NCBI GenBank assembly: GCA_900299205.1
Contig: OMIW01000099.1
Location: 1-5,537 of the forward strand
Source: Pseudomonadota bacterium
GTDB lineage: Bacteria; Bdellovibrionota_C; UBA2361; OMIW01
Reading direction: 5' to 3'
DNA length: 5,537 nucleotides
Below, piece after piece: positions 1-5,537 of this stretch. Under the pieces are notes generated by a model. That model did not search any database and was not told the origin of the DNA. It saw nothing but the letters and a program-made list of their open reading frames with translations. The position numbers and the translations under genes are program-made. How positions within the stretch are numbered: the stretch's first letter is position 1; each line of letters opens with the position of its first letter.

Positions 1-355
1 CCCCCTTACTTCGCCCCACCCGCCGAATGGGGACGTTACCTCCGACCAGCGGAAATGCAACATTGTCAAACACGGAGAGGGAATCAAAGAGCGCTCCCTC
101 CTGAAACATCAAGGCAAGGAGAACTTTGCCGTTATGCTTCGTCGATAAAGCAACCGAACCCGATGAGGGGGAGACGATTCCCGCTATCGTTTTGAGTAAG
201 ACACTCTTCCCTGAACCACTCGGTCCTATCAGACCCCACGATTCACCCATACCGAATGAGCACGAAACTCCCCGAAGCACAGGGCCCAGCTGAAAATCAA
301 CCCACAGATTCTCCACGACAATCGAGGATGGCGTATGGGGAACTAATTCAGCCAC
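1..355 (-). CDS. mlaF: MlaF-like ABC transporter ATP-binding protein (N-terminal part, runs off the window)
   Basis: The minus strand is open for 118 codons from a GTG at 355-353 to the window edge. The Walker A motif GPSGSGKS is at residues 44-51. The Q-loop glutamine is Q85, in MFQEGALFDSL followed by SVFDNVAFPL. This Q-loop wording is typical of the MlaF/Ttg2A/Mkl ATPases. They power the MlaFEDB inner-membrane complex, which moves phospholipid between the inner membrane and the periplasmic carrier MlaC. The signature motif, Walker B and H-loop lie outside the window. The GTG at 355 is chosen because it overlaps the dus stop (GTGGCTGA) and has GAGAGG just upstream, though the spacing of about 4 bases is short. 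A second GTG at 318-316 (residue 14) has no such site. The overlap suggests translational coupling to dus. An mlaE-like permease would be expected further left (inference). Family assignment is strong. The exact transported lipid is unknown. Confidence 0.88.
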   Translation of the reverse strand, partial: MAELVPHTPSSIVVENLWVDFQLGPVLRGVSCSFGMGESWGLIGPSGSGKSVLLKTIAGIVSPSSGSVALSTKHNGKVLLALMFQEGALFDSLSVFDNVAFPLVGGNVPIRRVGRSKG

Positions 356-1403
356 ACAGCCTCTCGCGAGTCTCTTCTTCACCGATGATATCACCTAATC
401 TGGATACCTCCTCACTCCCGAAACTCCCATCCAAAACCCGCGCCAGCACCTCCTCTTGTTCCGCTAATCCTTGCGCCCGGCAGAACGTTTTTGACCATGA
501 ATATCCCTTTGCCATCTGTGAGGCGAGCTGTTTGAGCCTTCCCACGACCGACAAGGTGGGACGACCACTCCCGAGTAAGAGATCGCGATATCGCAAAAGG
601 ACCCTCACCATTCTTTCCGGGTCCTGCCGCAGTCCGCACGGCTGCCCCGTGACGATATCGGTAAACACTAGGGGATTAAAGATAGCGGCGCGACCGACGT
701 AGAGCCCGACAACCCCCGATTGGAGCCGCTCAGCAGCCGACGCCGCATCACACACATCACCGCTCCCACACACCGGGATTCGCACCGTCTCAACAACCTG
801 ACGCACAATCTCATAATCAGCACTTCCGCGGTATAATGCGGCCCGGGTGCGTCCATGCACCGTAACTCCCTCAACCCCCTCACTCTCAGCGATTCGAGCA
901 ATTTCGGGGGCATTTCGCGAGCCATCATCCCACCCCGAACGCATCTTTATGGTAAGCGGAATTGAGACCGCCTTTCTTACTTCTCGGAGCATCGCCCCGA
1001 GGTGGAGCGGTTGTCTCATTAATTCACACCCCCCACCACGACGAACGACCTTCGGAGCGGGACACCCACAATTAATATCAACGAGGTCTGCTCCGGCCTG
1101 CTCAACCATCTTAGCTGCATCCCGCATTCGGTTGATATCATAACCGAAAATCTGAATCCCCACCGGTCGCTCCATCTCAGCGAACCGCATCATCTCAAGG
1201 CTCCGTCGCCCCTCCCGGGTTAAACCCTCAACAGAGATGAACTCACTAACGACCAACCCAAGAGCCCCTGGATTTAGCTCACGGAGAAGCTGGCGGAACG
1301 CCGAGCAGGTCACTCCACTCATGGGAGCCAACACAAGACCGGGAGCGACTCGCAGGTCACGAATTGAATAAGCGGGTATCATACCGTCAAACGAAAAGGC
1401 CAT
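348..1403 (-). CDS. dusB: tRNA-dihydrouridine synthase, DusB-like
   Basis: This cytoplasmic flavoenzyme reduces uridines of the tRNA D-loop to dihydrouridine with FMN and NADPH. The 351-residue length fits the family. The N-terminal TIM barrel starts with LAPMSGVT (25-32). The catalytic motif DINCGCPAPKVVRRGGG (109-125) holds the presumed proton-donor Cys114 and Asn111. FMN-contacting residues are expected at K153 (KMRSGW) and H183 (VTVHGRTRA). The phosphate-binding end is GSGD (213-216) and VGRAAIFNP (236-244). A helical tRNA-binding domain should fill about 250-351. KVVRRGGG and HGRTRA point to the DusB group rather than DusA or DusC. Small deviations are GSGD where GNGD or ANGD is usual, and GVVGLYVGR where an aspartate normally precedes the last strand (GADALMIGR in E. 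coli DusB). ATG 1403 is the first start after an in-frame stop, and no clear Shine-Dalgarno precedes it. It follows the kinase gene by 46 bases, and its stop overlaps the ABC gene, so one transcript is likely. Confidence 0.95.
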   Translation of the reverse strand: MAFSFDGMIPAYSIRDLRVAPGLVLAPMSGVTCSAFRQLLRELNPGALGLVVSEFISVEGLTREGRRSLEMMRFAEMERPVGIQIFGYDINRMRDAAKMVEQAGADLVDINCGCPAPKVVRRGGGCELMRQPLHLGAMLREVRKAVSIPLTIKMRSGWDDGSRNAPEIARIAESEGVEGVTVHGRTRAALYRGSADYEIVRQVVETVRIPVCGSGDVCDAASAAERLQSGVVGLYVGRAAIFNPLVFTDIVTGQPCGLRQDPERMVRVLLRYRDLLLGSGRPTLSVVGRLKQLASQMAKGYSWSKTFCRAQGLAEQEEVLARVLDGSFGSEEVSRLGDIIGEEETRERLCG

Positions 1404-1449: not shown

Positions 1450-3003
1450 CTAGTCGCCATCCAGACACTCACGCACTCGCGACCCAAGTTCCTCCAAAGT
1501 GAACGGCTTTTGCAGAAACACACTCCTCCCCGAATTGAGAAGTTCCTCCACCTGAGTGGCTCGGCTGAATCCACTCATTACGAGGATTTTCATGCAGGGG
1601 TGAATAGAACGAATCTCCGAGAAAACTTTGTCACCCGTGACATTCGGTAGCACCATATCGAGGAGGACCAAATCAAAAGGAACTCCGCTCTGACATGCCG
1701 CAATCGCTGCCTCTCCCGAATCAACTGCCGTGACTGAATAGCCAAGCTGCTCGAGTCCGAGAGCAACGACATCTCGAACCGCCCGATCATCATCCATGAC
1801 GAGAATGCGTTCGCGCCTCCCGACTGTTCCCATCACTGATACATCCAGCTGCGGACGTCGACCGAGGAGGTGGCCCTCTCTGACACTCCCCTCGGGGACG
1901 CTCGAAAACCCTCCCAGAGACAGAGCCGCATCCGGCACGCACCCCGAAAATAGAAAGGTGACCGCGAACTCACCGTCGCCCCCTCCCATTGCCCCAGGGA
2001 TCATTTCTGTTACTGAAACAGACACTCCGCCGGAGAGGTTAACAGCTGACTGTGACCGAGGAGTGAGCGAATCGACAAGGCTCGCAATCCAATCCGGCCA
2101 TCGAACATCCCACCCGCAACATCGAACTCTCACCAACAACCTCATGTCAGTGGAGGGTTCTCCCAATTCCCCCTCGACTATAGGATCTATTCCTGGACTG
2201 ATGAGCGAGAGCGTTAGCATTCTCACCTTCATCCCCGATCCGCCAAGACCAAGGCAAAAGTATAACGGATATTCAGCAATTCGTCTATCTTGACCTCCTA
2301 TCCAGAGAGGATTCGAGGGGAGATCGACCTCAATCACAACTCCGCGGGGGAGCACCGACTCCATCAAGCCAGTCGCCTGACGAATGAGTACTCGAGCATC
2401 ACTGGGATCGAGCGAAAGACACTCCCTCGGTTGCGCGATATAACCGAGATTGGCGATCAGTACACCGACCTGACGCGCTCCTCTCTCGATTGCGTGAAGC
2501 GACTCGCGATGCGCTCCTTGCTCCGCTAGTATCATCCTCAAATAGGCAACGTGTCCCAGGATTCCAGTGACCCCGTTATTCAGATCGTGCACGACTCCCG
2601 TCGTTACCCGCTCGAGAAGGCTCACCCGAGACGGACTTGTAGGCTCATTATGAACTCGCGAACCCTCACCTCTCGCTCCTCGAGCAACAACTTCACTTTC
2701 CGCCCGATAGCAACAGAAGCCAGAAATTGTGCCTCCAAGTCGGCGAACAGTCAGTTCAATAGGGGATTTCGATAACTCGACAGGGTGAATCGTGCAGTTA
2801 ATCGGAAAGTCAGCTCGATTTGCACTTAAAATCGCCTCGGCCAGCTCTGGAATGGCGAGAGATAATCGAATCCCTGACCTTTCAGCAGTTCCGGATTGCT
2901 CTCCTCCAAGCCACTTTAAAGCCTCTTCGGAGGCGAACTGCACCAGCAAGCTCTGGTCAGTCACCACAATCCACCCAAGGCCATCTCCTCTCGTTGTTTT
3001 CAC
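1450..3003 (-). CDS. Hybrid sensor histidine kinase with degenerate ATP-binding domain and C-terminal receiver
   Basis: The predicted protein has 517 residues. Residues about 8-103 look like a PAS sensor fold (WIVVTDQSLLVQFASEEALKW opens it). The dimerisation and phosphoacceptor helix pair covers about 125-192, with H139 in VVHDLNNGVTGILGH. Residues about 198-356 sit where the HATPase domain belongs and keep its start (lead strand VVIEVDLPSNPLWIGGQDRR). The N box, the DxGxG box and the GTGLGL box cannot be found there. The C-terminal receiver covers 398-517, with acidic pocket D404-D406, phosphoacceptor D449 (LLDMVLP), S477 and K499 (LQKPF), all intact. No membrane segment or signal peptide is seen, so the protein is likely cytoplasmic. 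The GTG start has GGGAGAAG upstream and an in-frame TAG a few codons before it. A possible role is a phosphotransfer or scaffold protein fed by another kinase (inference). It is the first gene of the presumed operon with dus and the ABC ATPase. Domain calls are firm and the signal is unknown. Confidence 0.9.
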   Translation of the reverse strand: MKTTRGDGLGWIVVTDQSLLVQFASEEALKWLGGEQSGTAERSGIRLSLAIPELAEAILSANRADFPINCTIHPVELSKSPIELTVRRLGGTISGFCCYRAESEVVARGARGEGSRVHNEPTSPSRVSLLERVTTGVVHDLNNGVTGILGHVAYLRMILAEQGAHRESLHAIERGARQVGVLIANLGYIAQPRECLSLDPSDARVLIRQATGLMESVLPRGVVIEVDLPSNPLWIGGQDRRIAEYPLYFCLGLGGSGMKVRMLTLSLISPGIDPIVEGELGEPSTDMRLLVRVRCCGWDVRWPDWIASLVDSLTPRSQSAVNLSGGVSVSVTEMIPGAMGGGDGEFAVTFLFSGCVPDAALSLGGFSSVPEGSVREGHLLGRRPQLDVSVMGTVGRRERILVMDDDRAVRDVVALGLEQLGYSVTAVDSGEAAIAACQSGVPFDLVLLDMVLPNVTGDKVFSEIRSIHPCMKILVMSGFSRATQVEELLNSGRSVFLQKPFTLEELGSRVRECLDGD

Positions 3004-3316
3004 CCCACTTCTCCCACGTTGCTATCAACCCCATGCCGGGCAAATTATCCCCGACGAGACATTCTCGACATCAGGAGCAAAGTACGGGGTGAAGCATCCT
3101 CCTGCAACCACCTCTCCAAAATCTCCGTCTCACACAATCGCTAAAAATGGCCTTTCAGTCGTGTTTATCCAACCACACAACCCATTCGCTTGCATACCTT
3201 GCGAAATTCCTCAGGGTAAATACCTCACCCCAAGAATTTATGCTGGACATTAGTATCGACCTTTGCATTAATAGAACTTCGTAGGCGGACGTCACCCTCG
3301 ATATGTAAGGGTATGG
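3004..3316. other. Divergent intergenic region upstream of the hybrid kinase
   Basis: These 313 bases hold no convincing gene. Short open frames exist on both strands, but none has a recognisable product. The minus strand should carry the 5' leader of the kinase mRNA, and the right end may carry promoters for both directions. An imperfect pair GTAAG (3305-3309) and CTTAC (3321-3325) sits at the right border, next to a perfect inverted repeat just beyond it. Confidence 0.6.
3268..3295 (-). promoter_or_regulatory. Possible sigma-70-type promoter for the kinase operon
   Basis: Read on the minus strand, GTGACG (3295-3290) is followed by 16 bases and then TATTAA (3273-3268). Each hexamer matches four of six consensus positions. 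A start near 3261 would give a leader of about 258 bases before the kinase GTG. On the plus strand an overlapping and even weaker pair, TTCGTA (3278-3283) and TATGTA (3302-3307) with an 18-base spacer, could serve the csp side. Both are inspection calls only. Confidence 0.2.
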
Positions 3317-3541
3317 ATGACTTACGTTACCGTTGGTAACAAACAATCAGCGGCGAGGGGACAGCATCGGAAGGTACTGAAAGGAGCCATAGTCGGAGGA
3401 GTGCTCCAAGGCCATCAGCTGATGCATCATACACATGAGCCTCGGCTTGCTCGGTGCTCACGAAGATTTCCCCTCTCCGTGGTTAATGCGTCTTTTTCAA
3501 AGGGGACCTGCGGTAAGCCATCGGGAGAAGTTTTGATGTGA
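3317..3541 (+). CDS. Possible small basic protein, first of two tandem small ORFs before csp
   Basis: This 74-codon frame starts with ATG preceded by AAGG at a good distance (6 bases). It encodes a basic, His-rich peptide beginning MTYVTVGNKQS with a GAIVGGVL stretch, and it resembles no family I know. Its TGA overlaps the GTG of the next small frame by 4 bases (GTGA), a spacing typical of coupled genes. There is no gene on the opposite strand to make it a shadow. However, frames of this length arise by chance, and the same DNA carries several palindromes, so a non-coding structured leader is equally or more likely. Confidence 0.25.
   Translation: MTYVTVGNKQSAARGQHRKVLKGAIVGGVLQGHQLMHHTHEPRLARCSRRFPLSVVNASFSKGTCGKPSGEVLM
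3326..3340. repeat. Perfect inverted repeat GTTACC-GTT-GGTAAC
   Basis: Two 6-base arms are separated by 3 bases. It lies at the csp-side border of the divergent region, directly after the weaker GTAAG/CTTAC pair. It could be a repressor operator or an RNA hairpin near the start of the first small ORF. No AT-rich or T-run context marks it as a terminator. Confidence 0.55.
3413..3429. repeat. Two overlapping palindromes
   Basis: CATCAGCTGATG (3413-3424) is a perfect 12-base palindrome. It shares bases with a second perfect 10-base palindrome, TGATGCATCA (3420-3429). Only one can form at a time as a hairpin, and both have very short loops. As DNA they could be binding sites for dimeric proteins. 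A further TGAGC/GCTCA pair (3436-3440 with 3456-3460) follows. Confidence 0.45.
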
Positions 3542-3723
3542 GCTGTCGAAGTGCAGTGGCGATCGTCGCGATGAGCGGTGCGCGACTTGGAACTGTACAA
3601 GAGAAGTCCTGGAAAAATACATCAGGGGTAAAAAAGTCAGGTAGCCGTAGAGAATGGTGGCGTCACAGGCACGAGGTACTGGGGCAGAGTGACGTAGAGA
3701 GTTTAGTCGCTTTTGAATGGTAG
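3538..3723 (+). CDS. Possible small basic protein, second tandem small ORF
   Basis: This 61-codon frame begins with GTG, overlaps the preceding TGA by 4 bases and has GGGAGAAG upstream at a usable distance. Its TAG at 3721-3723 lies only 6 bases before the csp ATG. The peptide is basic with a Trp-rich patch (REWWRHRHE) and matches no family I recognise. The tight packing supports a real coupled gene. The GC-rich hairpin inside it and the cold-box-like element near its end support a regulatory leader instead. Codon use gives no clear answer by eye. Confidence 0.22.
   Translation: MSCRSAVAIVAMSGARLGTVQEKSWKNTSGVKKSGSRREWWRHRHEVLGQSDVESLVAFEW
3565..3586 (+). other. GC-rich hairpin in the csp leader
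   Basis: GTCGCG (3565-3570) pairs perfectly with CGCGAC (3581-3586) around a 10-base loop. A competing hairpin, GCGA-TCG-TCGC (3560-3570), uses the same bases, so two exclusive folds are possible. No T-run follows, so it is not an intrinsic terminator. A role in controlling csp translation or stability is inference. Confidence 0.4.
3690..3700 (+). promoter_or_regulatory. Cold-box-like element upstream of csp
   Basis: TGACGTAGAGA differs by one base from the E. coli cspA-family cold box TGACGTACAGA, which lies at the 5' end of long cold-shock mRNA leaders. Here it sits 29 bases before the start of a cold-shock-domain gene. The position differs from E. coli, where the box is far from the start codon. 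A chance match is possible but not expected in so short a region. Confidence 0.4.
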
Positions 3724-3729
3724 GATGTT

Positions 3730-4101
3730 ATGTCGGAGACGCTTCGAGGGGTTGTTAAGTGGTTCAATGATGCGAAGGGATTCGGGTTCATTGAACATAA
3801 AAGTGGGAAGGACGTGTTTGTTCATTACTCTGTTATCCAGTCAGAGGGGTTCAAAACCCTAAAAGATGGTGAGACCGTCGAGTATGAGCTTCAAGAGGGG
3901 GATAAAGGCCTCAATGCAGCCAGAGTCTACAGGCTTGTCTCAAACGAACAGCGGCCTGCCTCCGAATTAAAGGTCGAGGTTACCGTTGAAGAGCCACGAG
4001 GGATATCGGCGGCATCAAGTCTAACCGTAGGCGCATCAGCGCTTCGGGTGGAAGGAGCCGACGGCATCGAAAGAGCTGACTCTGGCACATTTGACAGCTA
4101 G
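3730..4101 (+). CDS. Cold-shock-domain nucleic-acid-binding protein with C-terminal extension
   Basis: Residues 1-69 form a complete cold-shock domain: [16 protein letters not shown] with RNP1 at KGFGFI (16-21), RNP2 at VFVHY (29-33), then [14 protein letters not shown] and a closing strand near [10 protein letters not shown]. Such domains bind single-stranded RNA or DNA in the cytoplasm and act as RNA chaperones in cold shock or general translation. The usual length is about 65-70 residues, but this protein has 123. The extra 54 residues are rich in Ser, Ala, Glu and Gly with alternating charge, look disordered, and match no domain I know. The ATG has AGGA 4 bases upstream. A leader of uncertain length precedes it, with a cold-box-like site and hairpins, which would suit temperature control. 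Two possible small ORFs lie directly upstream. The domain call is secure. Cold inducibility is inference. Confidence 0.95.
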
Positions 4102-4442: not shown

Positions 4443-5537
4443 ATGACCCCCCTCAACATCACCTCCCTTGTGAGCCGTATTCTTGCCCTCTCTGCGGTCG
4501 GTATGACGATCATGCTCACCGGCGTTCCTCGCCCGATAATAGGCACCAACGACGGAACTATATCTCTCTCCTTCGCCGACCTCAGGGATACCTTTTCCTC
4601 TGATAGTCAGTGTTCAAAATCCGTTGAAGTTGATGGTTGGCATTACTTGCTCGACAGATCGCGTGATGCCGTGAGAGCGGGCAACGAAGATACAGCGAGG
4701 GAACCTCGAGGAATTGCCCTCAAAAATACCTCCTCACGAACGATCATTGTCATAGCGAAGCACCCTCGATCGCAGAGGATACCAAGGTCTCGAAGAAACT
4801 CGTCTTGGGGAGATCTCTTCATCAATACGAGTAAACTCTCGCTCTCAGAGGCAAGCGACGTTCGCCGCCTTTGCGGTATTCGATTCGCGCGAAAAAACGG
4901 CGCCGGAGTTGGTCGTTTAGGGGTTTACGGGGATGTGAATGCAAAAGGAGCCTCGGCTTCTCGGCGAGCTTTTGGGACTAACAAAACGAGCGGTCTGGCC
5001 CTTAGTGTGCGAACGAGATCCGCATCCGTCGGAGCTTGGTGTCGCTCAACGGCTTTTTTAGCCCGGTCCCACCGTTCACTCTATCCAACTGTTATCGGAC
5101 GAGGGACATATCTGGGCCCGATCTCTCGCCTCTCTGAAGAGCGAGTATTCGCAGAGGGTTTTGATCGGAGAAGGTTTCCACGCAGCACCCTCATCGCCTT
5201 TTCTTTTGACAAAACTCTCCTCGATAGTGCCTCTGGGTGCTCAATCCCCGAGGGGGCGATCCCCTCCGCAAGACTGGTGGTCACGCCAACTCCAACAGCT
5301 ACCCCTACCGCTACTCCCACGGAAACTCCGACACCGACTCCCACGGAAACTCCCACACCGACCCCGACAGAAACTCCGACACCGACCCCAACGGAAACTC
5401 CCACACCGACTCCCACGGAAACTCCGACATCAACCCCTACGGAAACTCCGACTGCAACAGCAACTCCGACTGCCACTCTTACCCCGACAAGGACTCCCAC
5501 CCCGTCACCCACGGTAACGGTAACTCCTTCCCCCCAA
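4443..5537 (+). CDS. Putative exported protein with Thr/Pro-rich repeat tail (C-terminus beyond the window)
   Basis: The frame from ATG 4443 has no stop for all 365 codons to the window end. Residues about 9-28 ([20 protein letters not shown]) are hydrophobic behind a short N-terminus and may be a signal peptide or anchor, although no clear AxA cleavage site is visible. Residues about 35-280 form a region I do not recognise. It is rich in Arg and Ser, has four cysteines (57, 144, 200, 266) that could make disulfides outside the cytoplasm, and has a strongly basic stretch at 106-118. From residue 281 the sequence becomes Thr/Pro-rich, with six 8-residue units based on TETPTPTP (293-340) and then looser TP repeats. 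Such tails usually act as extended, possibly glycosylated, linkers in surface or secreted proteins. No Shine-Dalgarno site is evident before the ATG. The start could instead be ATG 4503 or 4512, which would shorten the hydrophobic segment. Function is unknown. Confidence 0.75.
5319..5462 (+). repeat. 24-bp tandem repeat, six units, coding TETPTPTP
   Basis: Units start at 5319, 5343, 5367, 5391, 5415 and 5439, each beginning ACG or ACA, then GAA ACT CC. The first four encode TETPTPTP. The fifth ends TSTP and the sixth TATA. Differences among the first four units are only at third codon positions (CCG/CCC/CCA, ACT/ACC, ACG/ACA). The exact 24-base period keeps the reading frame. Confidence 0.9.

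Follow-up and report, generated by a model that had tools for sequence, protein, structure and literature searches.

A hybrid histidine kinase orthologue lacking recognizable ATP-binding boxes, with its phospho-acceptor histidine and receiver pocket retained

RetS has a degenerate HATPase domain without G boxes and does not autophosphorylate; it accepts phosphate from phosphorylated GacS (GacS-P), keeps GacS from autophosphorylating, and is a transmitter phosphatase (PMC5992135). PhyT, Spo0B, and ChpT are described as phosphotransferases whose kinase domains have degenerated (PMC5898713; PMC9981736): the account of PhyT in PMC5898713 has it transferring phosphate from SdrG to PhyR, and the CA domain of ChpT is functionally degenerated (PMC9981736). 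The protein described here has the features of a RetS-like hybrid pseudo-histidine kinase, by the definition taken from PMC5992135: a retained H-box, a degenerate HATPase domain, and a receiver.

The locus and its relatives

The window (the whole stretch of DNA analyzed) is one entire 5.5 kb contig from a 206-contig draft genome, 90% complete. The frame of interest has 517 codons, open throughout as the first-pass annotation had stated, with the domain order DHp-CA-REC; its start codon as listed is GTG, although the true start may differ. The features discussed below are:

1450-3003, minus strand: putative hybrid pseudo-histidine kinase, 517 aa, open frame; orthologue of a class-wide hybrid kinase
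2632-3003, minus strand: N-terminal region, residues 1-124, PAS-like in relatives only
2434-2631, minus strand: DHp domain, residues 125-190, with the invariant motif H139-D140-L141-N142-N143 (HisKA, 21 bits)
2587-2589, minus strand: codon for H139, the presumed phospho-acceptor, an invariant alignment column
1924-2412, minus strand: degenerate CA (HATPase) domain, residues 198-360, without HATPase_c; 4 of 30 near-invariant columns retained
2233-2277, minus strand: former N box, AEYPLYFCLGLGGSG, by alignment with 33 relatives (which have xQxxxNLxxNARDAx)
2107-2139, minus strand: former G1 box, LLVRVRCCGWD, by the same alignment (relatives, e.g., LxVxDNGxGMx)
2002-2043, minus strand: former G2 box, VNLSGGVSVSVTEM, by the same alignment (relatives GTGLGLxTV)
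1462-1809, minus strand: receiver (REC), residues 399-514, with D404/D405, D449, S477, and K499 (Response_reg, E 7.5e-22)
1657-1659, minus strand: codon for D449, the presumed REC phospho-acceptor, an invariant alignment column
348-1403, minus strand: tRNA-dihydrouridine synthase (dus), the downstream neighbor, adjacent in several relatives (Pfam Dus, E 4.3e-68)
2-394, minus strand: ABC transporter ATPase, cut by the contig end (Pfam ABC_tran, E 2.1e-12; synteny)
3730-4101, plus strand: cold-shock-domain protein, divergently transcribed neighbor (Pfam CSD, E 9.8e-27; synteny)

Some 700 bases (3004-3729), with no evident gene and no Rfam match, separate the kinase gene from the divergent cold-shock gene; relatives also show gaps of several hundred bases. 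At the other end of the window, an open frame without a Pfam match (4443-5537, plus strand) runs off the contig. It ends in a 24-base tandem repeat (5316-5452) encoding TPTPTE units, and its codon score is weak outside the repeat; the sequence suggests a product that is secreted or on the cell surface and carries a Pro/Thr linker.

The family profile matches 43 of 45 genomes of the class at E 1e-60 or better, a count that includes genomes whose best match resembles a different kinase (G005, G008, G041, and G044 among those inspected). With the window's N-terminal and DHp region as query, exactly one match is found in 23 of 28 genomes of the order, and in 13 of the 13 of good quality. The window protein itself matches the whole-length profile of the class-wide hybrid kinase over DHp and REC, with 223 bits when the profile is built without it and E 8.9e-137 when the alignment includes it. 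Several relatives share the gene order (divergent cold-shock gene, kinase, then dus and/or the ABC ATPase), which places the window gene at the same locus as their hybrid kinase. Judged by similarity and gene order, it is positionally orthologous to a hybrid kinase that occurs throughout the class. The window genome is the sole representative of its family in this comparison; a search of genome contigs gave no close relatives, just two distant matches. A second intact copy was sought within the genome (90% complete, as noted), and distant kinases were all that was found.

Loss of the ATP-binding boxes

A Pfam scan of the window protein finds Response_reg (residues 400-510, E 7.5e-22) and, below threshold, a HisKA match (residues 131-186, 21 bits), with no HATPase_c even at E 10; an identical scan of two intact relatives finds HATPase_c at 75-80 bits. 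The N, G1, F, and G2 boxes are present in 33 of 33 aligned orthologues and absent from the window protein, in agreement with the first-pass reading that the N-box asparagine, DxGxG, and GTGLGL motifs are missing. With a CA profile built from 29 relatives, the segment from the window reaches 9.4 bits, vs. at least 186 for the relatives, while 200 shuffled versions of it do not exceed 5.0. What homology remains is limited to approximately residues 203-249, and the box region lies mostly downstream of this; beyond approximately residue 249 no sequence homology to CA could be detected (a control segment from the N-terminus gave a probability of 1.6). A hidden frameshift was also considered: the window's other five frames, read through stops, contain no CA relic matching the profile. 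The weak score in frame and the empty other frames together indicate that the boxes are truly gone rather than hidden by a frameshift.

Of the features expected of an active HisKA kinase, the H-box with its phospho-acceptor histidine is present (H139 in HDLNN, invariant), and the HATPase_c domain is missing, along with its N, G1, F, and G2 boxes. Without these boxes, ATP binding is not expected. Since every aligned relative has them and the window protein has none, the comparison strongly supports the proposed loss of autophosphorylation, and it can be inferred that this protein is unable to autophosphorylate. That it is a real kinase-dead hybrid histidine kinase appears well supported by these sequence comparisons. 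The loss was not seen in any of the 33 aligned orthologues, nor in the further genes inspected, including that of genome G011, examined outside the alignment, whose boxes are intact. Among the genomes compared, the window genome alone is without them.

With an alignment, AlphaFold2 (mean pLDDT 76, pTM 0.69) retains CA as an alpha/beta sandwich whose lid is disordered. In residues 198-360 it predicts a helix, a strand, a long helix, two strands, another helix, and two further strands. Most of this has pLDDT 75-92, but confidence is low at the positions of the ATP lid and G2 loop and toward the end of the domain; REC is mostly at 78-98. This alignment consists of 47 distant, intact kinases from contigs with related loci, on which the CA model depends, and from the single sequence no usable model was obtained (pLDDT 36), so that a CA-like fold is only suggested. 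With the alignment-based model, the top Foldseek match is ShkA, a full-length hybrid kinase (E 1.1e-11), and the kinase ZraS is also listed, in a receiver-dominated list with large rmsd; the VIA-align list spans REC only and is uninformative on CA.

Constraint, decay, and possible roles

REC is by far the best-kept domain, with 30 of 36 near-invariant columns retained, compared to 14 of 24 for DHp (where relatives retain 97%) and 4 of 30 for CA. H139, D404, D405, D449, S477, and K499 are invariant columns in the alignment and are all kept by the window protein, as the first-pass annotation had proposed for the histidine and the receiver pocket; the pocket thus has its full set of acidic pair (D404/D405), phospho-aspartate (D449), Ser/Thr (S477), and lysine (K499). 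D140, N142, and N143 are also among the columns retained. The accompanying claim that the first and last domains are well conserved holds for REC. It does not extend to DHp, nor to residues 1-124, where mean identity to relatives is 13% (19% among the relatives themselves) and Pfam detects no PAS domain, such matches being found in relatives only.

All three domains have changed rapidly. Tip lengths for the window protein, in substitutions per site, are 1.35 for DHp, 5.84 for CA, and 0.99 for REC, against medians of 0.12, 0.52, and 0.27 (11x, 11x, and 4x). A generally fast-evolving organism does not account for this: the tips of the neighboring genes are near their medians (0.56 vs. 0.44 for dus, 0.68 vs. 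0.50 for the ABC ATPase), making the acceleration specific to the kinase gene. In a neutral simulation starting from the CA core of an intact orthologue, a stand-in for the ancestor, approximately 1% of runs still had an open frame at the observed identity, with indels uncounted; 30-46 of these would be expected under neutrality at an assumed rate of one per ten substitutions. The in-frame CA codons score higher than 98.9% of wrong-frame stretches from this genome's genes, at the 17th percentile of real genes, although in the box region alone (residues 240-340) the codon signal is near zero. Overprinting is not indicated: the antisense ORF covering most of the degenerate CA domain (1796-2293, plus strand, 165 codons) scores -0.20 per codon, like non-coding sequence. 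The simulation, the codon usage, and the non-coding character of the antisense frame favor a protein that has long been translated and under constraint, possibly with a recent relaxation toward a pseudogene.

One could suppose that the gene is decaying, this lineage having lost the kinase function while the frame is still unbroken; the acceleration of every domain, the weak codon signal in the box region, and the single genome known would all fit. However, the CA domain has diverged far past the point at which neutral drift usually leaves a frame open, the catalytic residues of both DHp and REC are all retained, and the neighboring genes have ordinary rates, making decay an unlikely explanation. 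The first-pass argument against simple decay is thus supported by the neutral simulation, the coding potential, and the active-site residues, if short of proof. An artefact of assembly, frameshift, or mis-binning might be suspected in a 206-contig draft where the window is a whole 5.5 kb contig, but is very improbable and largely refuted: there is no CA relic in any other frame, gene order and composition match the genome and its order, and the flanking genes are ordinary.

Alternatively, the protein may be no more than a scaffold or phosphate sink. Its REC domain would then take phosphate or bind partners, while DHp would merely dimerize, or heterodimerize with another kinase, in the way that DivL and the ChrS pseudokinase modulate partner kinases. 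The better preservation of REC (30 of 36 near-invariant columns, vs. 14 of 24 in DHp) is in keeping with this, and modulation through a heterodimer with a pseudokinase has been proposed for ChrS. Set against it, H139, D140, N142, and N143 have all been retained while ten other DHp positions drifted, which suggests that the histidine is used; a pure scaffold or sink seems rather doubtful, if less so than decay.

The reading that seems somewhat better than even is that a single-copy hybrid kinase, kept intact elsewhere in the class, has here given rise to a pseudo-histidine kinase moving or removing phosphate by way of H139 and D449. The DHp dimer would carry a CA remnant that binds no nucleotide; phosphoryl groups from another kinase or receiver would reach H139 and/or D449, and would then be passed on or removed, in a mode like that of RetS, PhyT, ChpT, or Spo0B. 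In HisKA kinases, the asparagine four residues beyond the histidine (H+4) is the phosphatase position, which here is occupied by N143. With the ATP-gripping part gone and both phosphate-carrying sites kept, the protein probably passes or removes phosphate rather than making it, and the retained phospho-histidine, the asparagine four on, and the receiver pocket point the same way. Among the roles first suggested (relay, scaffold, or phosphatase), relay or phosphatase is favored, since H139, N143, and the receiver pocket all survive and characterized degenerate kinases act so; a function in moving or removing phosphate is moderately supported. One argument for caution is that DHp is itself accelerated and has lost 10 of 24 near-invariant residues, which makes its competence for phosphotransfer uncertain.

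No partner gene is encoded next to the window kinase. Elsewhere in the genome there are 15 HATPase_c domains above the cut-off and many receivers as possible donors. There is also a free-standing HPt-like frame of 126 aa (G000:C40:13409-13606), a candidate phosphorelay partner. The genome's other kinases, its receivers, and the HPt-like protein are possible donors or partners.

More tentatively, and with rather less confidence than for phosphate transfer or removal as such, one lineage may have turned a class-wide, otherwise intact kinase, in place, into a phosphotransferase or phosphatase dedicated to that role, with the receiver kept and no intact copy left. If so, some other kinase must have taken over as the source of phosphate for the pathway. 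The loss also implies that a signaling pathway common to the class is driven in another way in this lineage. With many orthologues intact and one kinase-dead at a single locus, there is a clean before-and-after pair, which shows directly which parts of a hybrid kinase stay and which go once autokinase activity is lost.

Comparison with known systems

The intact class orthologues (e.g., L019 and L012) resemble the window protein in length, domain order, HDxNN and receiver signatures, and, where checked, gene neighborhood; they differ in having N, G1, F, and G2 boxes in all cases. ChpT and Spo0B do not derive from this kinase family. Neither is known to have an attached receiver. Among solved structures, the intact relatives are best matched by PDB 5idj, “Histidine kinase” (E 1.4e-53 over DHp-CA), which is the DHp-CA portion of CckA (PMC9981736); CckA has the same DHp-CA-REC order, but its CA domain works while that of the window protein is degenerate. 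ChpT (Caulobacter/Brucella) and Spo0B (Bacillus) are described as dimeric phosphotransferases consisting of DHp and a functionally degenerate CA-like domain (PMC9981736; PMC5898713), whereas for the window protein a CA-like sandwich is predicted by the alignment-based model but not by the single-sequence one (pLDDT 36). PhyT/PhyP (Sphingomonas) are phosphotransferases that likewise keep the DHp histidine and have a degenerated ATPase domain; they are membrane-bound, with an HRxxN-type DHp, and the PhyT/PhyP passages of PMC5898713 do not describe a receiver domain. RetS of P. aeruginosa is like the window protein in being a hybrid with the DHp H-box kept, the HATPase domain degenerate and without G boxes, and a receiver attached (PMC5992135). 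RetS differs in carrying two REC domains, against one in the window protein, and in having GacS as its known partner; the likeness is one of domain features. Kinase-dead sensors are already a known functional type, to which this protein adds without forming a new one; what is new, as judged by sequence comparison, is its class-wide orthology, with box loss in the window genome only among those compared.
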